Assembly: GCA_023515795.1 (NCBI GenBank)
Contig: JALGPX010000011.1
Location: 6,338-70,337 of the forward strand
Origin: Amoeboaphelidium occidentale
Taxonomy: Eukaryota; Aphelidiomycota; Aphelidea
Reading direction: 5' to 3'
Length of the DNA: 64,000 nucleotides
A program made the position numbers and the translations under genes. The number at the start of each line of letters is the position of its first letter. Positions within the stretch are counted from its first letter, which is position 1. Positions 5,749-52,700 of the stretch are shown piece by piece. Below the pieces are notes generated by a model, which ran no database searches, was not told the DNA's origin, and worked only from the letters and a program-made list of their open reading frames with translations.

Positions 5749-8106
5749 TTATGCCCAGGGCTGCTTTCGGTGTAGTATTTCGTGAACAACCATTGCCCAT
5801 GCAAAAACATCTCTTGGCGTCCGGATTATGACTATCCTATTATTCTTTGGAAACACTTCAGGAGCAGCGTATGCAGTAGAGAAGATATAGTTTTCAGGAA
5901 CAATTGTATCTTTGATCTGAAGTGACTTCGGTGGTAAAGATTTTGCCATACTGAAATCAGAAATCAGACAATAAAGTCTCTTGGAATCCGCGTCGATATC
6001 AAGAAGTATGTTATCTGGCTTAACATCGCAGTGAACTATTCCTTTGGAGTGAATACTTTGAATACCTTTTGCTATATCTAGTGCCAAAGAGAACCGCAAC
6101 TTCCATGGTATTTTTGTTTCAGGATGGTAAAGAAACATCTTCAACGAGCCTTGAGGATAAAAGAGCATAATCATGGACACAGGGTTAGTGCAGTAACCAA
6201 TAACTTTTGCGCAATGCTTAAACTCGTGAACTGAAGCCATGAATTGTAATTCCAAATCAAATGCAGTTCTTACGGCGCCAGGGACAGCAACATCTACCAT
6301 TCCTATTTGCTTTACAATCACTACTTGTGCTAACCATTTTAATTGTGGACTTACTGCTTCTGCCAAAAAGATTTCTCCTATAGTACCTTTGGAAATGAAC
6401 TGAACAGCCTTATATTCATCACGATGAAATTCTCTCAAACCTGGGATAATTAAACCAGCATCGGCCATCTCAATTGTAACTCTTGCCATCTCAGCTGGAG
6501 TACCTTTAGGAATTCGGGGATCATTTATATTAGGATACTTTCTTCTTTTCCTAAATAATAGATAGAGCGCAGCCAATGCAAACAAGCCAACGACACCAGC
6601 AAAAATACCTCCCACCATTATTGGAGTACTGTTTTCGGCGCTGTTCTGGTCTAGATTTTCAACTGGAGGAGGCCTTGGTTGTATTCGGGTGAGGCTATCT
6701 GTAATGTTGCTACTTGAAGTAGTTGTGGTTTGTGCCATAATTCTTGTGTTTGATCGGATTATTGTGGTTTTTGCCCTGGTAGTATTGCTGAAATCGTAAG
6801 ACCACAAATCGTTTGTTATCGAAACACCTAATCCCTGTTGACCAATTATCCCTGCGAATAGATAAACCTTTTCACTATTCGGCTCATAAAAGGAAACACC
6901 AAAAGCTTTTGGACCAGGATGACATTTTTGGAACTGGCAAGACTCCTTTCGATTGGCATACAAAGCTCCACTACTTATCGTTATTGTTCCATCAATAAAT
7001 GCCCACTGCTCTTTCTCAGAATCAAATTGCCAAAGATCCCCAAGATATCCACTTCCTTGGCCAGATCGGCCGAAACCAACTCCGCCGTATACGATTAGAA
7101 TGCCAGTTTTAGTGATAAAAGAGGCTTGAGCACCATGTCTGCCTCCTGGATAGTTCTTTTCTTGGAAGACTCTAATAGTTTCATAGAATGCATAAGTTTG
7201 AAGGCTTTCCTCCAACAATCCTAATCTTTTCCATACTCCAGTATCGAGGCGATATTCATATATGGCGCTATAACTTTCTCCGCCTGTGTTGACATTTTCT
7301 TCTCCTCCATAAAGTATTATTCGATCATTATTTTCGTCGTATACCATACTTGCATGCAGTCTAGATGGAGGTTTGTTTACCTGGGACATTTCCTCCCAGT
7401 TTGACACTGAATAATTATACCTCCATAGTTTATCACTTGCGACAAACGGTCTTCCTGTACCTGAACCTCCAGTATATCCACTATAAAGATAGAAGGATTT
7501 TTCAGAAGTACCAGGTGCGTTAGTAAGACGTTGAATCCCCTTCATTTCTGCAGGAATATCCTTGTAAACATTCTGTCCAGGACTGTTGCCTGAAACCCAC
7601 ATCCATAGAGTACTATTAATATTGTATTTCCAATAGTCATCCAATGCTTGCGATGGTGTGTCTCCGCCAAAAAGGTGAAGCTGATCTTGAGTCTCGTCAC
7701 AAATTAATGTTGCGCGTCTTCTACCGCTTGGCCATCCTTCTTCGGTAAATGTTCCTCTACCACGGTAGTCACCAGCGTAATTAGGTATCAGGTATCGTCC
7801 AAGCCACGACCATTGTTCAATTGCAGAATCAAACGCCCACAGGTCAGATAAAGTTCCTGTTGCGCTCGAGAGGTCAAACCCTGTTCCGCCAAATATGAAT
7901 AGCTTTCCTAATCTGGCGTGATAGCATTGAGCCGTGTAAAGTCGAGCACTTGGAGTATAGTCATTATTGTACTCTCCCAAATCGCCGTAAACAGGTTTGC
8001 CACTCGCAGACTTTGATCCCGATATCCACGACCATTCATTAGCGTATCCCGAAACACCTGCGGCAAGAAGCACAAGGATCCGAGCGATGTAATTGATCGA
8101 TATCAT
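5749..8106 (-). CDS. Kelch-ectodomain receptor-like protein kinase, C-lobe shortened
   Basis: A single exon of 785 aa starting at ATG 8106. A signal peptide (about residues 1-22) is followed by kelch-type beta-propeller repeats to about 460 (repeated FIFGGTGFD, LHLFGGDTP, LIVYGGVGFGR and DLWAFD/DLWQFD strands). A Ser/Thr-rich stalk leads to a membrane span at about 498-520 followed by RKRRK, giving an extracellular propeller. The kinase domain (about 568-785) has VIVKQ with the ATP-binding Lys and an HCDVKPDN catalytic loop, but DFS in place of DFG. It ends KQPWA and then two stop codons, so the last part of the C-lobe is missing, as in its neighbours. An AATAAA lies about 30 nt beyond. It is a clear paralogue of the gene at 8297-10684. 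Whether it is catalytically active is open. Confidence 0.85.
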   Translation of the reverse strand: MISINYIARILVLLAAGVSGYANEWSWISGSKSASGKPVYGDLGEYNNDYTPSARLYTAQCYHARLGKLFIFGGTGFDLSSATGTLSDLWAFDSAIEQWSWLGRYLIPNYAGDYRGRGTFTEEGWPSGRRRATLICDETQDQLHLFGGDTPSQALDDYWKYNINSTLWMWVSGNSPGQNVYKDIPAEMKGIQRLTNAPGTSEKSFYLYSGYTGGSGTGRPFVASDKLWRYNYSVSNWEEMSQVNKPPSRLHASMVYDENNDRIILYGGEENVNTGGESYSAIYEYRLDTGVWKRLGLLEESLQTYAFYETIRVFQEKNYPGGRHGAQASFITKTGILIVYGGVGFGRSGQGSGYLGDLWQFDSEKEQWAFIDGTITISSGALYANRKESCQFQKCHPGPKAFGVSFYEPNSEKVYLFAGIIGQQGLGVSITNDLWSYDFSNTTRAKTTIIRSNTRIMAQTTTTSSSNITDSLTRIQPRPPPVENLDQNSAENSTPIMVGGIFAGVVGLFALAALYLLFRKRRKYPNINDPRIPKGTPAEMARVTIEMADAGLIIPGLREFHRDEYKAVQFISKGTIGEIFLAEAVSPQLKWLAQVVIVKQIGMVDVAVPGAVRTAFDLELQFMASVHEFKHCAKVIGYCTNPVSMIMLFYPQGSLKMFLYHPETKIPWKLRFSLALDIAKGIQSIHSKGIVHCDVKPDNILLDIDADSKRLYCLISDFSMAKSLPPKSLQIKDTIVPENYIFSTAYAAPEVFPKNNRIVIIRTPRDVFAWAMVVHEILHRKQPWA

Positions 8107-8296: not shown

Positions 8297-10684
8297 TCAA
8301 AGCCATGGCTCGTGCTTATTCATCAAAGCAGAGCAAACCATTCCGAATGCATAAACGTCTCTTGATGGTTGACAAGTCTGTATCACTCCCTTCACGGGAA
8401 ACGTTTCTGGTGATGCGTATCGTATGTTAGTCGGAGGATAATGAGGCATCCGTGTGTCTGTTTTAGGCCTTTTTGATGGAACAAGAACAGCAGACCTGAA
8501 GTCAGTTATCACGCTGGTGTATCTCAATAGTGATCCATCAAAGTCTAATAAAATGTTCTCGCATGAAATATCGCAGTGAATGTAACCTTTCCTATTAATA
8601 GCGTTGATTCCTGCTGCCAGAGTCTGAATAAACCAATATCTCTGTCTTGATGAGAATATCTTTGACTTCTCATTTAATGCCTTCAGAAGAGATCCATGAG
8701 GATAGTATCTTAAAATTATGGATACAGGATTAGTGCAATATCCAATTATAGTAGCACAATGCTTAACTTCAACGAAAAGCTGCATAATTGTAATCTCATT
8801 GTCAAAAGAAGCTCGTAACTCTCCAGGAACAGCCTTGTCTAGTTGCCCGATTTGTTTCACTACAACTTTTGGACCGATTTTCTTCAATTCTGGGCTTACA
8901 CTATCAGCAACGAATATATCACCAGTGTTGCCACTTTTTAGCTTAGTTCCTAAGCGGAACTCTTGACGATAATACTCCCGGTATACAACAGCGTTACTGG
9001 TATTAACGGTGCCAAAATCAGTATTAACATCTTCGAGTGGTAAATCTTCAGGCCTGAATCCAGTGTTACTTCTTTCAATGTCAGTTGGGTAGGTGCTCCT
9101 GATATTTTTGGGTTCTTCTGTTTTACCATAGCTTTGGTATTGTTTAGCTCTAGTTCGATAACTCCACCAAATACACCAAATTAGAAGTACAACAGCAAAA
9201 GCCACTGAAACTGAAACTATTACAATACTATTACCGTCCATTTCATCCGAAACTGCGGGCGCAACTACTTCCGGTCCCCTGGTGTTCCTTCTCGGCTGAG
9301 ATACTGTAGCTGATGAGAGGAAGGTAGACGATTGGGTGGTAATTGTAGTTCGAACCTTATCACTGAAATCAAATGACCAAATTTCATTGGTATACAGCCA
9401 GGTACCGGTTACTGAGAAGAATTCCCCAAAAGTGATAACAAATGTCTCGGTTTCTGCATCAAAGAATGAACCTCCGGCTAATCTTCCTCCAGGATAGCAT
9501 GAAGCACAAGAGACCCCAGAACTTGCAGGGTGCCGTGATCTTATATTAATTTCTCTATCGCCAGAAATCCAAGCCCATTGTCCCTGCCCAAAATCAAAAA
9601 CAAACATGTCGTTCATAGCTCCATTTTGAGATGTAATTCGATCAAATCCAAGGCCGCCAAATATTATAAGCTGATCTTTAACGGAATTATATGCAACGTA
9701 TGAATATCTTCGAGAGCTAGGCCGTGTAAATTCGTCAAAAATGGAAATCCTGTTATAGTAGCCATAATCAAAAAACCCATCCATAGAAGTGAGGTTTTTC
9801 CACGAGCCTGTATGAGTATCGTATTCAATAATTGTGTTGAATAAGAAAAAGGTGTTGTCTGAACGATTCTGGAAAACCCCTCCAAACACCAACAGTCTGC
9901 TAGATGACTGATCGTCTCCAGGAAGTTTTCTTACAGCCATCGATGCGTCAATGCGAGCCATTGGCCATTCTTTAACACTCTCGTTAACTTGATTCCACGA
10001 CTCATTAGCATAATTGAAATTCCATAAAGAATCACTTTGTATTGCCGCGCTACCTGTACCACTTGTCCCAGAGTAGATGTAAAACGACTTTTCAGTTTCA
10101 ACTGTAGCTGAAGCATATTTTGAAGGCGATTGTAGCTCTTCTGGAATATCCTGATAATCAGACCTTAGAGGCATATTGCCTTTGACCCATCTCCATTTCG
10201 TCCCGTCGATATCATAAGCCCACACGTCATCCATATAATCGATTCCAACTCCAGAGAACAACCACAGCATATTCTGTTTGGAATCACATGTAAGATGACC
10301 AAAATGCCTTGAAGATGGCCATACCTGATCATCGAATTCGTTCCGTATCGAATAATCCCCCAAGTAAAACACATCCAAGAATCTTCCCAACCAACTCCAT
10401 TGATTAGTGTCTACAGAGTATTCCCATAGATCCGAGAGAAATCCGTCTGCTCTATTATGCATTCCAAAGCCTCCAAAGACGTAAAACTTTCTAGTGATAT
10501 GGTTGAAACAATTGGGTATGGCAGCCCTGCTAGATGGTGTGAATGAATCACCTGCCTGATACATTCGACCGAACTCAGCTGGAGAATTGACAGTCTTTGA
10601 ACCCTTGAGCCATGTCCATTCATTCTTGTATCCATGAACTATCGCTAGGATCGTCAGAGCTATCAAAGTGAATCTAAGGCTCAT
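8297..10684 (-). CDS. Kelch-ectodomain receptor-like pseudokinase
   Basis: A single exon of 795 aa from ATG 10684. It has a signal peptide, kelch-type repeats (FYVFGGFGMHNR, LIIFGGLGFDR, DMFVFDFGQ), a membrane span at about 481-505 and a kinase-like domain from about 574 to the end. The ATP-binding Lys is kept (VVVKQ). The catalytic loop reads HCDISCEN, so the Asp and Asn remain but the usual Lys is Ser, and DFG is replaced by DFR. Together with the end at HEPWL, just after helix F, this suggests a pseudokinase or a weak enzyme. The layout and sequence match the neighbour at 5749-8106, 190 bp downstream on the same strand, so the pair arose by tandem duplication. The ectodomain ligand is unknown. 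Confidence 0.85.
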   Translation of the reverse strand: MSLRFTLIALTILAIVHGYKNEWTWLKGSKTVNSPAEFGRMYQAGDSFTPSSRAAIPNCFNHITRKFYVFGGFGMHNRADGFLSDLWEYSVDTNQWSWLGRFLDVFYLGDYSIRNEFDDQVWPSSRHFGHLTCDSKQNMLWLFSGVGIDYMDDVWAYDIDGTKWRWVKGNMPLRSDYQDIPEELQSPSKYASATVETEKSFYIYSGTSGTGSAAIQSDSLWNFNYANESWNQVNESVKEWPMARIDASMAVRKLPGDDQSSSRLLVFGGVFQNRSDNTFFLFNTIIEYDTHTGSWKNLTSMDGFFDYGYYNRISIFDEFTRPSSRRYSYVAYNSVKDQLIIFGGLGFDRITSQNGAMNDMFVFDFGQGQWAWISGDREINIRSRHPASSGVSCASCYPGGRLAGGSFFDAETETFVITFGEFFSVTGTWLYTNEIWSFDFSDKVRTTITTQSSTFLSSATVSQPRRNTRGPEVVAPAVSDEMDGNSIVIVSVSVAFAVVLLIWCIWWSYRTRAKQYQSYGKTEEPKNIRSTYPTDIERSNTGFRPEDLPLEDVNTDFGTVNTSNAVVYREYYRQEFRLGTKLKSGNTGDIFVADSVSPELKKIGPKVVVKQIGQLDKAVPGELRASFDNEITIMQLFVEVKHCATIIGYCTNPVSIILRYYPHGSLLKALNEKSKIFSSRQRYWFIQTLAAGINAINRKGYIHCDISCENILLDFDGSLLRYTSVITDFRSAVLVPSKRPKTDTRMPHYPPTNIRYASPETFPVKGVIQTCQPSRDVYAFGMVCSALMNKHEPWL

Positions 10685-41719: not shown

Positions 41720-42753
41720 TCAAAATTGCTCATGGCAGAAATCCAATACTAAATGTTCTTGACACAATCCACCAGTAGCAGCAGTGAAACCAAACCAACA
41801 ATTTTTTTCGTGTTGTTGTTGTTGTTGTTGTTGTTGTTGCAATAATACTATTTTACTTTGCGCCTTTTCAATCCTTATGATTCTGACATAATCTTTCTCT
41901 TCTTCAGAATCTGTGAAATAAACATTGAATTCATCTTTTTGACTCAAATACTCAACTACAACAAAATACCTGCTACCGTTACTCAATGAAGGCAAGTGTT
42001 CACAAACAGCAACAGAATAATCATGATGACTAGACAACTGAAACTCATTTCCAATAACAGGTCCTTGCTGCACTGAGATGTGATTTGAATTTGGATCATT
42101 ACACCTGTCCACAGATGCATATGTATCAATTTCTACTGCAATAGCTCTACCCTTTAGTCCATGATATCCCAATCCTGAACCACCTTGTCCCATTGTGGAA
42201 GCAGTAGCAGTAGCAGTAGCAGCAGCAGTAGTAGCAGCAGCGGTAGAAGTTTCCTGTTGAAGAACAAAAGCCATACCATCAGCACCTCCATTTTGATTAC
42301 CATTAATTCTAAAAGAGAAACCAATCCTAAAACTCTTCTTCAAATCAATCTTTTCTTTCAAATAGAATGCTGAACCAACACAATCATTCTTTGCAGGAGT
42401 CAACAAAAGCATTCCATCATTTTCATACTGAATCCTTGCAGTACCATTCAATTTCCATTCACCACCACCATCACCACCATTTAAAAATTTCATCCTCTTC
42501 ATTCCACTTGTACTCTTATTAAACATTTCCATCTGCTCCTTCTCCTGTCCAGAAGTAATGATTAAACTTGTACCAATTTCTCCTCTTGCTTTCCTCCATT
42601 CAACAGACCCACTTTGTCTTCCTAATAATTCTTCCTTCTTTAAACCATGTTCTTTAATTAAATCAACAGAATCCAATCTCTGTTCTAATTCTTCTTCTTC
42701 TTCTTCTTCTTCTCTTAATCTCCTTAATCTACATTCATCTGACAATGTCTCAA

Positions 42754-42788
<35 letters not shown>

Positions 42789-42992
42789 AAGAATTCTTTA
42801 ACAATCCTATAATCAACCAACCCAACTCTTCTCATGACCATTCCAATATAATCTCTTGNTTGTCTTCCTAATAATTCTTCCTTCTTTAAACCATGTTCTT
42901 TAATTAAATCAACAGAATCCAATCTCTGTTCTAATTCTTCTTCTTCTTCTCTTAATCTCCTTAATCTACATTCATCTGACAATGTCTCAAAG

Positions 42993-43031
<39 letters not shown>

Positions 43032-43894
43032 AAGAATTCTTTAACAATCCTATAATCAACCAACCCAACTCTTCTCATGACCATTCCAATATAATCTCTT
43101 GTATATCTTTTTGATACATCCACCACACAATGATTAGATGAATTACTCTTTAATGTAAACCCAAACACATATGTCAACTTCTTTCCCCATCCTACTTCAT
43201 ACATTAGAGGTGAATCATAAGCCTGTTCACATGGATCCAAATGTATCCATCTTTTCTGAGACGGAGAATAATATTCTACCCAAACATGATCAGTCAAATC
43301 CAGAATGTATCGTAAATCTACTTTTAATAATCCTGAAGATTTAAGAAATAATAAAAAACAATTTGCCCATTCTCCACAACGTCCTTTACGAGTTTCCAAT
43401 AATTTAAGAGGATCATTATACCTTGGAAATCTTTGAATTAGAAAACATTGTGGACACTTGTACAATTCTACTCTTATTGAAGCACCATAGAGTAATTCAT
43501 CTGACATTGTAGAAGGTGTTGTAGTTGTACCAATAAATTTACATTTTATCTTACATTCTAAACATTCCAATTCATTAAGCCATTCAAAGAAATCCTGTTT
43601 AAACCATTTCAATAATGCCTTTACAAATTCTACTTCATCATCTTCCTCTTTTAGTTTAAGAATATTTTCAGGAATTAATCTTTTGGCTGCTTCTTGTCTC
43701 TTGGAATCTTCATAAACAGACATTCTATTCAATTCATGTAACAATCTTTGAATGAACTGATGACTCATGTTATTATTATTATTATTGTTCCCATAGTATC
43801 TTCTGTTGATCCAATCAGCAGTCAATTCTCTAATGAATCTCTTTTGAGAAGGAAGTAGTAATAATAAATTATTATTATTATTGTTGTTGTTCAT
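41720..43894 (-). CDS. Peptide:N-glycanase fused to an L-type-lectin-like domain
   Basis: A single exon from ATG 43894; as written it has 724 codons, one of them unreadable (N at 42859). The N-terminal half is a PNGase: two CxxC zinc pairs (CLEC and CPQC), the transglutaminase Cys in KGRCGEWANCF, the His in DHVWVEYY and the Asp in HLDPCE. PNGase strips N-glycans from misfolded glycoproteins in the cytosol during ERAD. The C-terminal 240 residues (GGEWKLNGTARI, GADGMAFVLQQE, GSGLGYHGLKGRAIAVEIDTY, DPNSNHISVQ) match the concanavalin-like legume/L-type lectin fold in place of the usual animal PAW domain. A roughly 245-bp segment is present twice around the N and should probably be counted once. 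PolyGln, polyAsn and polyGlu tracts are frequent. Confidence 0.85.
42614..43101. repeat. Duplicated contig ends in the PNGase gene
   Basis: 42614-42858 and 42860-43101 are near copies on either side of one N. They differ mainly in the lengths of a GTT (Gln) and a TTC (Glu) microsatellite, as expected of two haplotypes or unresolved repeats. Confidence 0.85.
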
Positions 43895-44435: not shown

Positions 44436-45168
44436 ACTGAAAAGTTATTGGAATTGGAAGGAGAATTCTATAACAATACTTTTAATTTATTCTTTAATTC
44501 CAATCAAGTATTAATTCCTATTCAATTGGATTTATTGTTGGAGTATAGAAGATTCAGTAAAGGAATTCTTCAAGTATCAGTAGCAGCAGCAGCAGCAGTA
44601 GGAAGAAGAAGAAGAAATACTTCCAATGATGTATTCTTTAAGAAGAGATTGGAGTTGTTGAATGTGTTTCATTTGCTTGTATTAAAGTACACTACTCTGA
44701 ATCATTTACTACAGAGTGTTCAGCCTCTGTTTTCTTCTGAAGAATTTATTACTGTGCACTTAAAGAGAGAATTGGATCAGTTGGATATTAATCAGATTAT
44801 AAATGAGTATTCCCTTCTATTGTTTAGTAGTAATGATTGTGATTGTGATGTGGACGTTGAATCAGTGAGGCAATTCTATGATACTAGAGTCTATTCTCTT
44901 TTATTCCACACTCCCTTCAGGTACATTCTACTTTGTACTTCTTAATGGTTATAGGATCACGCTGCTGGAGGAATTGCTGGCACTTGTTAATCAAGTCATT
45001 TTATCTTCAAATAACTCATCACTTTTTTACAGGTTTGAGTGCTTTGCGCAGTTGGTTGTTAGGGATTTGTGTTTGAGGTCGAGTCCTGTGTTTGGATCAG
45101 TGTTGATTACCAAAATGTTCTTTGATGAGTACATCAAGTATTTGGAAGAAGAGAAGTGTATTGTGTAA
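44022..45168 (+). CDS. RFX-like winged-helix DNA-binding protein
   Basis: Two exons (44022-44920, 44955-45168) over a 34-nt intron (44921-44954) give 370 aa. Residues about 12-75 resemble the RFX/ARID2 winged helix: LLKKYNEFC, then SSVQFQKVLKEMYPSVELKRIGRQNGTQLYYEGI, with the R-x-G-x-R-x-x-x-T-x-YY-x-GI signature of RFX proteins. The rest is helical with an Asp tract from a GAT repeat (44399-44434), polyAla and polyArg, and could be the RFX dimerisation region. RFX factors bind X-box DNA; in animals they control ciliary genes and in yeasts cell-cycle and damage genes. In a flagellated fungus either role is possible. It is divergent from the PNGase gene with 127 bp between ATGs. Confidence 0.7.
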
Positions 45169-46035
45169 GAGAGAAAAAAAGTAAGTAAATAAACCCGATC
45201 AAAGTCCTCGCGTCCGGACTTTTCCATAGCAAACATCGGACTTCGTCAATCAATCGTTTGAGACCTCAACGACTATTTAGCTGCAGATAAACAGTAATAT
45301 CTTCAGATAAATTTCCTTTTCAGTCAACATTTATCTGTTCACAAATGGCAAATCAAAGCAGAATCTCTGAAAGACTTATGAGCGCAAAAAGTGATCATGA
45401 AACATCGCATCAGATTTCATCGCCCTCTGACACTTGGAGAAAGATATTATAATCACAGAGGTGAAATTTTAAATTCGCGCCAGGTAGCGGGACTAGATCT
45501 AGGAGCCCAGGTTTCGTGGATTCAAATTAATTCATGATCCATGTTCAGTGTGTCTTGGATGTTGTTTGAACTCACAAAAGCGTTGACAGGACGCCCTGAG
45601 TGATTCGAAACTCAAACCGAACAAGATGAGTGAAGTTGATGGTAAAGTGATACTTACAGAGAAAACGAAACCGGATGTGATCAAGTTGAAGGAAGAGTTG
45701 CTAAGAAGAAGCATCGATAGCTTTCTGAAAATACTCCAAGAAGCTCTTATCCTCGTGACATAATCCGAGAATGAAGGAACTAGAATTCTGAAGTGCAAAG
45801 ACTACAAGACCTCAACTGGTCTCTAGATCTTTGTTAAAAGGGATGTTAAAGCGGTTCATTACATGGCAAATATCGCGATTCAAGTGAACGGAGAAAAAGG
45901 GACTAGCAAATGTGTCTTTTTCTTTGGCAAACCTTTACTTTTAGTGTAGCAGATAAAACAATATCTTGACCCGAAATGAATGAATAGAATTTTTGCAATT
46001 TTCGTGATCGGTTCGAATCTTTTTCATATCAGAAT
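45169..46035. other. Gene-poor flank upstream of the Fanzor locus
   Basis: About 870 bp without a recognised gene. A short inverted repeat AAAGTCC/GGACTTT with an 8-nt loop lies at 45201-45222, around a GTCCGGAC palindrome. A 45-codon frame at 45626-45763 has an ATG and a helical KLKEELLRRSIDSF segment loosely like a SAP motif; I would not call it a gene without more evidence. Promoter and 5' leader of the Fanzor copy and 3' end of the RFX gene must lie here. No terminal inverted repeat matching the far side was found by eye. Confidence 0.45.
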
Positions 46036-46347
46036 ATGAAAAAGAAACGCAAACTACCTGATGAAGGTGACGAAGATTATGATCCTGATGTTGAGGATGA
46101 TGTTGCTGCTAAGCCCATAGATGAGCCTGCAGAAGAAGTGGAGGAAGACCTCACACCAGTCTCAGTAACTTCAATTGTAACGAGAAAGACTGGACTTAAT
46201 TCCTTGATCCCGAATGAAATATTGAGAACAAAGATAAGAGATATGGTTGATACAATTAATTTCATTCGATTTCATGGGTCCCGACTCCTTAATCTATATG
46301 TAGTTCAGATGTGCTCAGAAGGACGTGATTTGGGGTTGTTGACCTGT
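46036..46347 (+). CDS. Fanzor N-terminal part, copy A (cut at an N)
   Basis: From ATG 46036 the frame gives 104 residues up to the N at 46348. It opens with MKKKRKLPDEGDEDYDPD: a KKKRK nuclear-localisation-type cluster and then an acidic tract, followed by the region shared with the other copies (TRKTGLNSLIPNEILRTKIR, NFIRFHGSRLLNLYVVQMC). It is the only piece here with an evident start codon and NLS. Nucleotide differences from pieces B and C (for example TINFIRF where B has TMNFIRY) indicate a separate paralogue or allele. Confidence 0.65.
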
Positions 46348-46348
46348 N

Positions 46349-46866
46349 CCTGAAGAGGAAGAGGAGGAAGATATGACCCCTATCCCAATAGCGTCAATTG
46401 TGGCTAGGAAGACTGGCCTTAACTCCTTGGTCCCTAATGAAATATTGAGGACAAAGATAAGAGATATGGTTGATACAATGAATTTCATTCGATATCATGG
46501 GTCCCGACTCCTTAATCTATATGTAGTTCAGATGTGCTCAGAAGGGCGGGATTTGGGGTTGTTGACCTGTGGTTTTGGAGGCATTCTACGACACTTCTTT
46601 GTGGCAGTCTGTGATAATTCTGCCAACATCCGTACCACTCGTCTTGATGAAGATGTTGCCCCTCTGGCTGAAATTTATAGAAATAGGGCTTTTGAATCTG
46701 GTTTAGAGTTTCCTTTGAATACTGGCATATCCAGCACTTTGTACAATATGGTGGCGTCTTATGAGACCAATTTGATGAACTACATGACAACTACGACTTT
46801 TGGTAGAGTACGGAGGTGGTTAATGCACTTGTTGGAACTGGAATATCCGGATTGTTTCAAAGTCAA
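46349..46866 (+). CDS. Fanzor N-terminal/middle part, copy B
   Basis: In frame from 46349: a run of Glu, then the same N-terminal domain as copy A and further through LLTCGFGGILRHFFVAVCDN, EDVAPLAEIYRNRAFESG and RRWLMHLLELEYPDCFKV, ending at an N at 46867. Its last 250 nt match the beginning of the long C-terminal piece (47452 on) with only a few differences, so B and that piece are likely the two halves of one gene or of near-identical alleles. No catalytic motif is in this part; it corresponds to the recognition and wedge region of TnpB-like proteins by position. Confidence 0.65.
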
Positions 46867-46867
46867 N

Positions 46868-46934
46868 CGTCTTGATGAAGATGTTGCCCCTCTGGCTGAA
46901 ATTTATAGAAATAGGGCTTTTGAATCTGGTTTAG
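46868..46934 (+). pseudogene. 67-bp Fanzor fragment between two Ns
   Basis: A short piece equal to part of copy B (encoding RLDEDVAPLAEIYRNRAFES), flanked by Ns at 46867 and 46935. It is almost certainly a leftover contig end and not a genomic unit. Confidence 0.7.
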
Positions 46935-46935
46935 N

Positions 46936-47450
46936 TGAGGACAAAGATAAGAGATATGGTTGATACAATGAATTTCATTCGATATCATGGATCCCGCCTA
47001 CTAAATCTATATGTTGTGCAGATGTGCTCAGAAAGACGTGATTTGGGGTTGTTAACCTGTGGTTATGGAGGCATTTTACGACACTTCTTTGTGGCAGTTT
47101 GCAACAATGCCGGTCACTCTCGAACCACCAGGCTTGATGAAAATGTTTCCCCTCTGGCTGAAATCTATAGGAATAGGTCGTCTGAATTTGGCGTAGAGTT
47201 TCCTTTGAATACTGGAATTTCGAGTACATTAAATAGTATGGTGGCCTCTTATGAGACCAATTTGATGAATTATATTACAACGACAACTGTTGGTAGAGTG
47301 CGTAGGTGGTTGATGCACTTGTTGGAACTGGAATATCCGGATTGTTTCAAAGTTAAGAGGAGAAGCACCGCTGGTGCAAGTTATTGCATTACGTTGTTGA
47401 ATTCAATGCCACAAGATGATAATGCGTTACCGGAGCTTCCAGAGGTACTA
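46936..47450 (+). CDS. Fanzor N-terminal/middle part, copy C (diverged)
   Basis: In frame from about 46938 (RTKIRDMVDTMNF) to the N at 47451. It covers the same region as copy B but differs throughout: CGYGGILRHFFVAVCNNAGH in place of CGFGG...CDNSAN, ENVSPLAEIYRNRSSEFGVE in place of EDVAPLAEIYRNRAFESGLE, and RRSTAGASYCITLLNSMPQ where the long piece has QRSTSGANYCISSLSALLE. The changes include several amino-acid replacements, so this is a distinct paralogue and not a sequencing variant. Its C-terminal half is not in the window. Confidence 0.65.
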
Positions 47451-47451
47451 N

Positions 47452-49106
47452 GTCTTGATGAAGATGTTGCCCCTCTGGCTGAAATTTATAGAAATAGGGC
47501 TTTTGAATCTGGTTTAGAGTTTCCTTTAAATACTGGCATATCCAGCATTTTGAACAATATGGTGGCGTCTTATGAGACCAATTTGATGAACTACATGACA
47601 ACTACGACTTTTGGTAGAGTACGGAGGTGGTTAATGCACTTGTTGGAACTGGAGTATCCGGATTGTTTCAAAGTCAAACAACGGAGCACATCCGGGGCCA
47701 ATTACTGTATTTCATCGTTGAGTGCACTTTTGGAAGAGAATAATGAGTTGCCTGAGCTTCCAGATATTCTAGAAAAGTTTGCAAAGAAACATGACAGGGC
47801 GAGAATCGTGAGGGCTCTTAGAACAGTGCATAGAATTTTAGTGGCCGAAACAGTAGAGAAAAAACTTTATTTAGATAAGGAATTTTTGAAGGAATACTGG
47901 TACAAATTTTTTCACTTGCAGTATCATATTCTGAATCAATTCACAAAATACTCCGAGGCGGATGCGCAAGCTAGATTGGAAGAGAATCGGCGTGGCAAAG
48001 GTTTAAGACTTTTCACCATGGTGCCTTTGGCTGATGTTAAGACTTCTCATGTGTTTTTTGACGGAAGTGGTCTTTCCGAAGTGGTTCACCGGGCGTTCGA
48101 AGAAGAATCTTTTGTCGGCCCTCCCAATCATCCAAGAGATCTTAATGCTACAGAACGAAAGGCACTCTTTACAGGCAAAAAGTCGAGGGTGCCATTGTGG
48201 AATTGGGCTGTTAAGTTAAAATGTGTAAAACATAAGAATATGGACTTCAACTACTCATTTAGTACTGATGGGGTAAGTGTGTCTGTTCACTTTAAAAAGC
48301 CTGGTTTCAAGGAACGACTTAATGACAAAGGGTTTTTGTGGAATAATCACGAGAAGTATTCACCGATTGGCATTGAAAATCGGGTCGTTGTGGGTGTTGA
48401 CCCTGGTAGAATTGATTTGGTTGTTTGCAGTGATGGCTCAAGAAAGAGTTTTGGTTGTTCAGGAAAAGAATGGCAAGAGATCGCTGGCTTTAGGTATCAA
48501 AGATGGCGTCAGAAAAGTTGGTTAGAGAAGAACGACAATATCCAAACAATTGTTAAGGATATGCCTTCAGCAAAGGTTACAAAGGTCGAAGACTATCTAA
48601 CGTACCTGAACTACATTCTAAGACACTACACGGCTCTCTCTAATTTTTACGGTTCTCAAAAATGGAGGCAGTTAAGAAGAAAAACAGACATGAAGAAAAC
48701 CAAAGCCTTTGATATTGTGTGCAAAAGAATTGCTGGAAACAACTTTGAAAGAGTTGTTGCTTATGGCTCTGGTGGATTTTCTAGCTGTTCGCGTGGGCAT
48801 GCACCGTTACCGGTGAAGGGTTTGTTTAAAGCGTTGAAACAGAGGAATGCTCTTGTTCGTCTGGTTTGGGAACATCGTACAAGCAAACTTTGCTGTCAGT
48901 GTGAAGGCGAGTTACCTGAAGGCAAGAGATGGCAGGTGAGAATTTGTAAGACTTGCAAAATACACTGGAATCGCGACTTCAACGCTGCTAACAACATAAG
49001 AAAGATTCTGATACACATGGAGGAGAACAACGGAGAAAGACCATTTAATTTTCTAACGAAGAAACAACAAAAAAGCAAGGGAAACGACTTCATTGTCGGT
49101 GGATAA
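47452..49106 (+). CDS. Fanzor RNA-guided nuclease, middle and C-terminal part with catalytic core
   Basis: 551 residues in frame up to the stop at 49104-49106; the N-terminus is supplied only by the overlapping copy B. The RuvC-like core is complete: RuvC-I VVVGVDPGRIDLV (Asp codon 48399-48401); the strand that in TnpB carries the catalytic Glu reads RVVAYGSGG, with Gly at that site (48765-48767); a Glu lies just before the zinc finger in VWEHRTSKLC (48870-48872); a CxxC...CxxC zinc ribbon (CCQCEGEL, CKTC); and RuvC-III HWNRDFNAANNI (Asp 48975-48977). This shifted Glu is the arrangement known from Fanzor nucleases. A basic C-terminal tail (KKQQKSK) follows. Nuclease activity guided by an RNA from its own 3' end is inferred from the family. 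No internal stop or frameshift in this part. Confidence 0.88.
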
Positions 49107-49290
49107 CCTTGGCTAGCTGGAGTAAAGCATTATTACCAAAAATCATGAAATTTCACGTTGAAGGAGCTATTTGGTTTATCTATTTGGTTTCGGACCCGTG
49201 TGATTGATATGGTGAAATAAGTATATTTTGTGGAACTATCACAATATAAAGACTTGTGTGATGTTTGTTTTGTACATCTTTTTCTGATTG
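49107..49290 (+). ncRNA. Candidate Fanzor guide-RNA (omega/fRNA) region
   Basis: TnpB and Fanzor guide RNAs usually derive from the 3' end of the nuclease gene and the flank beyond it. This 184-bp stretch between the Fanzor stop and the convergent small gene has no coding content. It contains a direct repeat of ATTTGGTTT (about 49169-49191) and AT-rich sequence. I could not fold it, so this entry marks location only. Confidence 0.25.
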
Positions 49291-49605
49291 TCAAGTTGGT
49301 GCAGGTCTTAGTAGTGGTGGTGGTGGTGGTGGTAGTGGTATATCCTTCTCTTGATCTTTTTTAGTTTCTTCAATGTGCGGTGCTTGTTGTAACTTTCTGT
49401 CGAATTCTTGCTTGTACTTGATCACACGACAAGCATCAGAGAATAGTCCAATTACATTCAGAACATCCATATTGCACATTGTACGTTTGAGGAAACTGTA
49501 TTTTTCTTGTAGAGTCTGAGGAGCAGGAGCTAAAGATTGGCACTGTGCAGGTTGAGGCAGGAGAATCAGGAGTAACAATAGTGATCGTATCAGAGATATT
49601 ATCAT
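49291..49605 (-). CDS. Small secreted protein with proline-rich tail
   Basis: A single exon of 104 aa from ATG 49605. A strong signal peptide (about 1-22, LLLLLILLPQPAQC) precedes about 55 charged residues with two Cys (about positions 44 and 59) and a C-terminal polyproline run (LPPPPPPLLRP). I do not recognise the family. The region upstream has a short GT repeat (about 49611-49632). Small size and secretion could suit an effector or wall protein, but nothing specific supports it. Confidence 0.55.
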   Translation of the reverse strand: MIISLIRSLLLLLILLPQPAQCQSLAPAPQTLQEKYSFLKRTMCNMDVLNVIGLFSDACRVIKYKQEFDRKLQQAPHIEETKKDQEKDIPLPPPPPPLLRPAPT

Positions 49606-49790
49606 TTAGTGAGTGAGTGTGTGTGTGTGTGTCTGCGGTAGGATATCACGACTGAGAATAGTTATGGCGAAATCTCAAATCGGTACGACTTGAATCAAGA
49701 TTTACCCCTTGATTGCTCTCAACCAACGTTACATCATCACGTGAACTATGAAATCTATTCTTCTTTGCACTTTCTCGCACTTCCCTGGTC

Positions 49791-52700
49791 TTAAACAACT
49801 GTGTATCGCGCTTGTGGTCCTCTTTGTGGTCCTAGAAGTCCATTCTCCTTTGCTACATCTTTGGCTGCACGTACAACTTCTGCTTTTGCTGCACTGACAC
49901 CTGTTCTAGTCTCACCCATAATGATCATGTGTAGTTTCCGTTCACCAGTTGGTACTTTCCCCTCATAGAATTGACCACGAACTACAACGGTGCAACCAGT
50001 CCCAGATTGTAAATAATCATGAAATTCTTTTGACAATAGTTTCTGTCGAATCTGCATCGGATAATCGTTAATTTCCAATTCTGCAGTGAAATTTCCAACA
50101 TCGCCAAACACAGTAGAATGTTCAGAGTCACGTAATTGAAGATTCAACTTCTCAACAATATCTTCATCACCTCGTTCACTACGCATACCTGCTGCATCAA
50201 GAACAGTCATTGCTTGACGGTTAACTAATTCAGCATTGGATAAGAGTGCTAATTTGCGAGCATCAGAAACATCAGATATAGTTTGAGTGGATGGTTGTTG
50301 TGACTGTGGATTCTTGAATACAATTTCATCTCCTTCTACTCCCGTTTCTCCATCATCAGCATCCTCCTGATCTTCGGCTGAACCAAATGTCAGCTTTTGA
50401 GCCTTCTTGATTTCATCTCTTTCCTTCTCGATCTGTTCCAAACCTTTACCTCGGAATCCAGATCCTGGTTTAACAGCTTCACCTCGTTTCACTTTTTCCA
50501 TAAACAAATCAGCCATCAATTTCAATGATTCTGGTACTTCTGCTTTGGACTTCTTCATTGCCTTTACAATGTCTGGTGTATACTTTTCCTGATCAGGTGT
50601 TATAAATGTGTATGCTACACCTTTTCTGCCAGCTCTACCAGTCCTTCCGACTCTATGAACATAATCTTCCATATGATTTGGACAATCGAAATTTATCACC
50701 AAATTACACTCCTTCACATCCAACCCACGAGCAGCCACAGAAGTCGCAATCATTATTTGGAATACACCAGATTTGAAATTTGTCAGTGTTGAATCTCGAT
50801 CAGTTTGTTCTTTTCCACCATGCAGTGAACAACAAGGATACCCCCGACGCAGTAACTCTCTCAATAAATTATCAGCAGATTCTTGTCTATCAACAAACAC
50901 CAGTGTACGCTGATCTCTTTCTGGAGAATACCAAACACCCAAAACTCTCAATAATTGTGTAAACTTCTCATCTTCATTACTCAACAACATTACATTCTGT
51001 TCTATAGTATCTGCAACAACTGATCGTTTCCCAACAATAATCTCGAGTGGATTCTTCAAAATCTTTCTTGCAAGTGCTTCCATTTCTCTAGGAAAAGTAG
51101 CAGAAAACAAAACCTTTTGTGCATTTGGCCTAACCATTTGCACAATCTTCATTACTTGTTGCTCGAATCCCAAATCAAACATTCGATCTGCTTCATCCAG
51201 CACCAGAAAAGTACACCGTAACAAATTAACAACACGACCTGAATTCGCTTGCAATAAATCAATCAATCTTCCTGGAGTAGAAATCATAATCTCACACCCT
51301 CTCTTAGTTTCCGATATCTGTTGTTGCAACGGTGCACCACCATAAGCACAATTAACTCTAAACCCTAAAACTCTACAAAATTTCTTGGCTTCTGCATAAA
51401 TCTGCAGAGCCAATTCTCTAGTTGGAGCCAACACTACACCTATTGGCCCTTCTCCATTCTGTACAAGTGGCTGATCCTTAATATGCCGAAACATTGGCAA
51501 CAGAAACGCCAAAGTCTTTCCTGACCCTGTTTTTGCAACCCCAATCAAATCCCTTCCCTCCAGTATACATGGAATAGCCTGACACTGTATTGCTGTAGGC
51601 CTAATAAACTTGAACTGTTCTTTCAACAATAAAAAACACTGCAAAGGCAATCCACACTGTGACCATTTCATTACAGGCTTTGGACATTTCCTACCAGAAA
51701 CATGAATCTGATCATTCTCTTCCCGAAATAAACCAACTTGTTCATCACTCATCTTTTGTATTTCCTGTGATTCAATATAAAAATTCTTTCTAAAATTCGG
51801 ATAAGGATATTGCTGAGGGTTGTTTGAGTAGGAGTAGGAAGAGGTTTTTGTTGTTGTTATTGAAGTAGTAGTGGGTGGTAATACTTCAACAAGATTATTA
51901 TTATGATTAGTTGATGACTCATCCTTTACATCTCCCTTTAAATCATCATCATCATCATCTGAATCTGAATCTGAATCTATATCTCCTTCTAATTCCTGTA
52001 TTAAATTTCCCTTATTACTATTATTACCACCACCACCACCANATCATCATCATCATCATCATCATCATCATCTGAATCTGAATCTATATCTCCTTCTAAT
52101 TCCTGTATTAAATTTCCCTTATTACTATTATTACCACCACCACCACCAAATGATGACTCATTCTTTTGTAAATTCCTCATGAATTCATCCAATGAATCCA
52201 CTCCACTGGAATCTTTAGTTAAAACAGAAGTAGAAGTAGAAGTCTCTTGTCCTAATACTTCTTCTATTGGAGTCTGGGGAAACTTACGAAAAAGAAACTT
52301 TATTAAATATATCACAGCGGGTCACTTTCGAAAATCAAATTAAGGATTTTGCACACGACAATGAAGCAATACCCATGAAAGTCGTAATCAGTACTCCTGT
52401 AAGTTGTGGCGAAAAGAAACCAATCCTTAATTCTTTTGTTAACTCTNTTCATCCAATGAATCCACTCCACTGGAATCTTTAGTTAAAACAGAAGTAGAAG
52501 TAGAAGTCTCTTGTCCTAATACTTCTTCTATTCTTCTCTTCTTTCGTTGTTTTTCCATTTCTTCTGTTAAATCCTTTGAATCTTCCAAAGAAGAGGAATT
52601 AGAAGTAAAAGTAGTGGAATGTAGTTTCTTATTCTTTAGGAGATTATTTTTAGAATTATTTAAAGTAAACATAGTCTTCTTCTTAACAGGAAGTTGTTGT

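Follow-up and report, generated by a model that had tools for sequence, protein, structure and literature searches.

Introduction

Fanzor proteins, as described in PMC10711439, carry a DPG motif and a glutamate six residues ahead of the zinc finger, and follow the pattern DPG-x(120-160)-E-x6-CxxC-x(12-18)-CxxC-x(4-8)-D. PMC11423790 assigns the glutamate to the loop that links the fifth strand to the zinc-ribbon domain, and the final residue of the site to a helix. Among the elements that encode such proteins, SPu-1 of Spizellomyces punctatus has SpuFz1, a Fanzor1 with a D/E/D site and a zinc ribbon, like the protein analyzed here (PMC10432273, PMC3627910). What Fanzors do for their elements is described as unknown (PMC10432273).

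The present locus comes from Amoeboaphelidium occidentale, a minute algal parasite and a member of the aphelids, which are described as the sister lineage of Fungi (PMC10608142). It lies in a stretch of 64,000 nucleotides of contig JALGPX010000011.1, hereafter the window. We propose, with a probability of about 0.7, that the window holds a Fanzor1 gene on a multi-copy A. occidentale element that inserts in the sense orientation at AATAAA, probably the poly(A) signal following the stop codon of a host gene, with a duplication of ~9–16 bp that includes the signal. A Fanzor1 family in aphelids that inserts at probable host poly(A) signals is the main point of interest.

The Window Protein

The window encodes a Fanzor1 with the alternative-glutamate RuvC signature. 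One open frame of 550 codons, without a stop, is translated from 47454–49103 of the plus strand. The motifs that a preliminary description had read from the sequence, i.e., the DPG aspartate, the glutamate before the zinc ribbon, the zinc cysteines, and a trailing aspartate, are all present in this single frame. D316 is followed by proline and glycine, giving the Fanzor DPG at RuvC-I. E473 precedes C480 by six residues, and the canonical site ~50 residues upstream is without a glutamate; the VVAYGSGG stretch, residues 434–441, has no acidic residue. The zinc ribbon is of the C4 type and is followed by an aspartate, the arrangement being CxxC-14-CxxC-6-D508. The Fanzor pattern, written as a regular expression with spacings a little wider than published, fits with spacings of 154, 14, and 6. 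In the predicted model, which is poor outside residues ~300–545, D316 is at the end of a strand, a strand of residues 467–471 is followed by E473, and D508 is at the start of a helix extending from residue 507–524.

The Pfam domain Cas12f1-like_TNB is matched at 1.6e-8, above its cut-off. A profile search of solved structures gives SpuFz1 at 2.7e-25, and SpuFz1, GtFz1, and PpFz1 rank at the top in that search and in the fold search. By sequence and fold, the window protein is closest to Fanzor1 rather than to Fanzor2 or TnpB, in agreement with the Fanzor assignment of the preliminary description. Canonical TnpB and Cas12f are ruled out by profile and fold, and the lack of a glutamate ~50 residues before the zinc finger, where a TnpB has one, rules out that class as well. 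The best relatives of the window protein are other A. occidentale proteins. The moved glutamate, which the preliminary description had singled out, is real (E473) but not special to this copy, since it is the usual Fanzor arrangement as given in PMC10711439 and PMC11423790. That is, the displaced glutamate is already known and ordinary for Fanzors.

Table 1. Positions of the element, its coding pieces, and its insertion-site copies in the window.
Feature	Position	Strand	Basis
AATAAA in left flank, 2 nt before element; left insertion-site copy	45188..45193	+	End comparison, flank analysis
Left end of element	45196..45323	+	Nine left ends in genome
N-terminal coding piece 1, begins MKKKRKLPD (NLS-like by eye)	46036..46347	+	Sequence
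N-terminal coding piece 2, content overlaps piece 1, behind single N	46349..46866	+	Self-comparison
67-base piece between single Ns, 100% identical to 46640-46706	46868..46934	+	Self-comparison
N-terminal coding piece 4, diverged copy, 80-91% to other pieces	46936..47450	+	Self-comparison
Fanzor1 coding piece, complete RuvC and zinc-ribbon part	47452..49106	+	550 codons plus stop; profile and fold searches
RuvC-I Asp, D316 of GVDPG	48399..48401	+	Pattern fit, profile match
Relocated RuvC-II Glu, E473 of VWEHRTSKLC	48870..48872	+	Pattern fit, profile match, model
Zinc ribbon C480/C483/C498/C501	48891..48956	+	Pfam match, pattern fit
RuvC-III Asp, D508 of NRDFNAANN	48975..48977	+	Pattern fit, profile match, model
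Candidate omega-RNA region: last codons, stop, 3' non-coding part	49047..49214	+	Conserved between copies
3' non-coding part and right end, ends ..GATTGATATGGTG	49107..49214	+	End comparison
AAATAAG in right flank; right insertion-site copy	49215..49221	+	End comparison

Organization of the Window Locus

Single Ns stand at 46348, 46867, 46935, and 47451, and the pieces between them repeat one coding region with 80–100% DNA identity (Table 1). From its sequence, the locus looks like a mosaic assembled from several element copies. The preliminary description had placed its motifs in one open frame at 47452–49106. That frame is upheld, but its start is an assembly join, the N at 47451, and not a gene start; the frame is open back to 46935 solely by way of an X codon. 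Because the MKKKRKLPD start lies at 46036, behind the Ns, segment 47452–49106 is the C-terminal part of the protein, with the N-terminus available in pieces only. Proteins P0002, P0004, and P0005 begin like the MKKKRKLPD piece. A genuine N-terminal duplication in the protein was considered and rejected, as the repeats are split by single Ns. The flanks of the element, AAATAAACC on the left and AAATAAGTATA on the right, differ and are thus not two copies of one target. No further ORF of ≥150 aa is found within 45196–49214.

The gene model of the A. occidentale protein P0007 (MP638_001082) begins in another protein and continues into the Fanzor N-terminus KKRKLPDEG; gene prediction has perhaps fused a host gene and a downstream element. 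A repeat similar to those of the locus surrounds a single N at 42859 of the window. This N is in the middle of a minus-strand gene, 41723–43894, in which an L-type (legume) lectin domain is fused with a transglutaminase/PNGase-like protein; as repeats flank the N on either side, the fusion is a provisional one. Three further minus-strand genes, close together at 551–2938, 5752–8106, and 8300–10684, encode proteins in which a kinase domain comes after a Kelch or WD40 propeller. By appearance these are receptor kinases, with membrane spans judged by eye.

Copies and Families

The Fanzor gene is multi-copy. At a threshold of E 1e-3 or better, the window protein matches at least 89 segments, a lower bound, on 43 of the 204 contigs of the 11.3 Mb genome. 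Our reading of a comparison of 30 loci plus the window distinguishes at least five Fanzor DNA families. The window's family, family A, has copies on contigs C173, C12, C29, C34, C200, and C187, and its ends are also found on C81 and C135. Six other family A copies have coding matches; stops interrupt three of them, and the remaining three are truncated at contig ends. Differences between family A copies, summed, occupy 289 of 1,962 cells at codon position 3 and 187 of 3,925 cells at positions 1 and 2. This third-position excess points to selection on the protein. With 550 codons intact and the third-position bias among copies, the window copy may be active, although the assembly does not give its gene in one piece.

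By eye, copies of a second Fanzor family (loci L016, L017, L019, L023, L024, and L028) carry TTTGGAACAA-like sequence close to each end, the orientation being the same at the two. These ends are unlike those of family A.

Element Ends and the Insertion Site

The ends of the family A element can be placed by comparison of copies, and AATAAA is found on both sides. The left ends agree back to CGATCAAAGTCC, two of them only to AAAGTCC, and the right ends agree until about GATATGATG, with divergence after AAATAA. The genome was searched with each end, using a left-end query without flank. AATAAA starts 8–16 nt upstream in all nine distinct full left ends found, a count that omits C56, C16, C67, and C72, whose left sides are incomplete; the background is 0.0005 per position per strand. 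Right ends, searched with a query that includes 11 flank bases, are followed by AAATAAA (6/8), AAATAAG (1/8), or TAATAAA (1/8). Upstream of AAATAAA, the nine flanks compared share no bases by eye.

Four end pairs suggest target duplications of 9–16 bp, as follows. With both ends on one contig, the putative duplication is 16 bp on C173 and 9 bp on C12. Two pairs join contig ends, as if the contigs had been broken at the element: C34/C200, with a putative duplication of 14 bp, the last 5 of which coincide with the usual element start, and C81/C135, with one of 10 bp.

In the left end, AAAGTCC and GGACTTT can pair to form a 7-bp hairpin at 45201–45222, which is present in the predicted DNA fold, a fold no more stable than that of shuffles (z -0.43). 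No clear hairpin is seen in the predicted fold of the Fanzor right end. Terminal inverted repeats were rejected, the left and right ends scoring 12 against a shuffle mean of 12.2. Also rejected was the idea that AATAAA is the site common to all Fanzor families of the genome. In four other families, none of the boundaries abuts AAATAAA, among 17 right and 14 left stretches with crude BLAST ends, some loci being repeated and two left stretches lacking flank. The site is thus not a trait of Fanzor as such.

Upstream Open Frames and Probable Poly(A) Signals

Sense open frames end directly upstream of the element. In nine of nine left flanks, a sense frame of 99–496 codons stops 6–42 nt before the element; for the window element, the frame has 99 codons and stops 27 nt before it. 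By comparison, such a sense frame accompanies 15 of the 69 AATAAA copies of the window, a count that includes the site of the element itself, and 8 of the 104 at other loci. An RFX DNA-binding domain is encoded by the ORF that precedes the window element.

After the stops of window ORFs of ≥200 aa, AATAAA occurs within 60 nt in 7 of 25 cases; two controls, the antisense strand and a stretch further downstream, gave 1 of 25 each. Given this enrichment, AATAAA is probably a poly(A) signal here. The insertion sites are therefore reckoned, from sequence, to be probable poly(A) signals of host genes, the upstream open frames being predicted genes. Counting against the host-gene reading, antisense open stretches of 66–190 codons lie within 150 nt at six of the nine left ends. 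The pattern could also arise with transcription playing no part, if the motif is targeted and insertions within genes are removed.

Related Short Elements

Short elements with a different right end, ..GCTGCATAAAAGACGCAGC..CCACA, contain portions of the element's first 690 bp; a 5-bp hairpin is seen by eye in this right end. Such elements are found on C56 (L059 and L070), C159 (L045), C162 (L047), C67 (L060), C72 (L061), and other contigs. Seven of twelve short-element right ends are followed by AAATAAA and the other five by a one-base variant; a match within one base of AAATAAA has a background of 0.36%. Of C56, C16, C67, and C72, the copies lacking a full left side, C56 is the one whose left side was inspected. 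By eye, this short element, its left side cut, lies downstream of the end of a frame, the two being separated by AATAGA. The short elements resemble the "ghost" elements described for SpuFz1 (PMC10432273).

The Candidate Guide-RNA Region

Judging from SpuFz1 and TnpB, a putative guide-RNA scaffold is likely to lie in the 3' part of the element, the support here being limited to conservation. Between copies, the 25 nt directly past the stop have 2 changed cells out of 125, and the following 25 nt have 15 out of 125. Third-position differences number 2 in the 100 cells of the last 20 codons and 287 in the 1,862 cells elsewhere; these cells are not independent. The low third-position divergence suggests an overlap of the last 20 codons with an RNA. 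Codons 451–500 are likewise low (5/191), codons 151–175 are unusually high (41/91) and perhaps misaligned, and no 20-codon window is entirely free of change. A guide-RNA structure was not supported by energy, as segment 49040–49206 folds no better than shuffles (z -0.01). The 44900–49800 region has no Rfam match.

A Proposed Mechanism

We suggest that the conserved 3' end of the element would serve as the guide-RNA scaffold and that the DNA on its right would be copied into the guide. The Fanzor and this guide RNA would cut the matching empty site, and repair from the filled copy would restore or spread the element, as has been suggested for TnpB. More tentatively, the target-adjacent motif may lie within AAATAAA, because no other shared motif is found beside the insertions.

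An extended form of this proposal, improbable in our estimate, runs as follows. The poly(A) signal would be the element's address. The element would land on AATAAA behind a host stop codon and copy the signal, and the second signal copy would end the transcript of the element, which would supply the guide RNA with a ready 3' terminus and with a guide matching the empty site, AAATAAA being the target-adjacent motif. If so, the host gene would keep one poly(A) signal after insertion, the element transcript would end shortly inside host DNA at the second signal copy, and each element copy would guard or re-invade one gene end.

In a compact genome, a poly(A) signal would be a site at which insertion does no harm. 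With this family, one can test directly if a eukaryotic element's insertion site and the target-adjacent motif of its nuclease are identical, and also what Fanzors contribute to their elements.

Alternative Readings

The origin and state of the gene can be read in two other ways. Contamination by a prokaryotic gene for TnpB or Cas12f has next to no probability: the Cas12f1-like_TNB domain is common to both, but Fanzor1 structures lead by sequence profile and by fold, the alternative glutamate is present and the canonical one absent, and the 157,554-base contig carries an RFX gene beside the Fanzor and, by eye, a DEAD-box helicase. The family might instead be dead or dying, the window frame being open by chance or through the joining of pieces of several copies. 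Consistent with decay, the copies on C173, C12, and C29 have stops or frame breaks, and single Ns divide the window locus. Among the loci compared, an open frame that holds the complete catalytic triad together with the zinc ribbon is found only in the window, L010, and L017, each with an X, under a strict expression that may miss copies; no full-length frame without an X is present. Yet the window frame is open for 550 codons, its catalytic residues are intact, and differences between copies are concentrated at third positions. We consider a dead or dying family unlikely.

A further question is what moves the element. Another enzyme with a preference for AATAAA, or target-primed reverse transcription at TTTATTT, could carry the Fanzor gene as a passenger, with a Fanzor motif unrelated to AATAAA; we put this at a little short of even odds. 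Short elements with no Fanzor match nearby have the family's left part and its preference for AATAAA but end differently on the right, and 12 of 12 of their right ends read are within one base of AAATAAA. The duplications vary in length, and left ends are in some cases frayed or cut short. MULEs have terminal inverted repeats, duplications of 8–11 bp, and a MULE transposase. The genome has three MULE transposase matches, and some element copies have 9–10 bp duplications; yet inverted repeats are absent from the left and right ends, and comparison of the element with two MULE loci gives no match beyond 10–12 bases, leaving MULE genes present without a link. Helitron2 elements have a 5' hairpin, a 3' subterminal hairpin, asymmetric inverted repeats, and a RepHel partner. 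In the window element, a 5' hairpin can form, the right-end hairpin is unclear, and the repeat score between the ends is not above that of shuffles. The Helitron domain PF14214 was not found in a genome search in which the control gave no match either, and no transposase tied to the element was found. Favoring a link between site and motif, and thus speaking against a passenger, is the adjacent motif of SpuFz1, CATA, which holds the conserved CA beside its element as described in PMC10432273.

Comparison with Known Systems

In the main texts of the open-access papers searched, none mentions both a Fanzor and an aphelid. The window Fanzor is plausibly a new member and, at most, a new host record. 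In titles and the openings of abstracts, no case was found of a transposon at AATAAA or of a Fanzor with a polyadenylation signal.

As a protein, the window Fanzor is like GtFz1 and PpFz1, being Fanzor1 by profile and fold and having the alternative glutamate. Its third catalytic residue is Asp, which in GtFz1 is Asn (PMC11423790).

As an element, it shares with SPu-1 the multi-copy, single-ORF organization, the short elements without the gene, a conserved 3' region adjoining the right end, and conserved bases beside the left end (PMC10432273, PMC3627910). SPu-1 differs in its inverted repeats of ~30 nt, putative TA duplications, and CATA motif, whereas the window element has no inverted repeats that we could find, an AATAAA site, and duplications of 9–16 bp.

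The Chlamydomonas elements CRe-1, 2, and 3 are Fanzor1 genes in Helitron2, with duplications of variable length, 7–19 bp, as here (PMC3627910). Their site is T-rich, which the window site matches if read from the other strand, and both they and the window family have 5'-truncated copies; a 5' hairpin, which they have, can form in the left end of the window element (PMC3627910). Unlike the CRe elements, the window element has no Helitron protein in a search whose control was also silent, and no clear hairpin at its right end. It also differs from them in its AATAAA site behind open frames. The new observation is the insertion of this family at AATAAA, directly after open frames.
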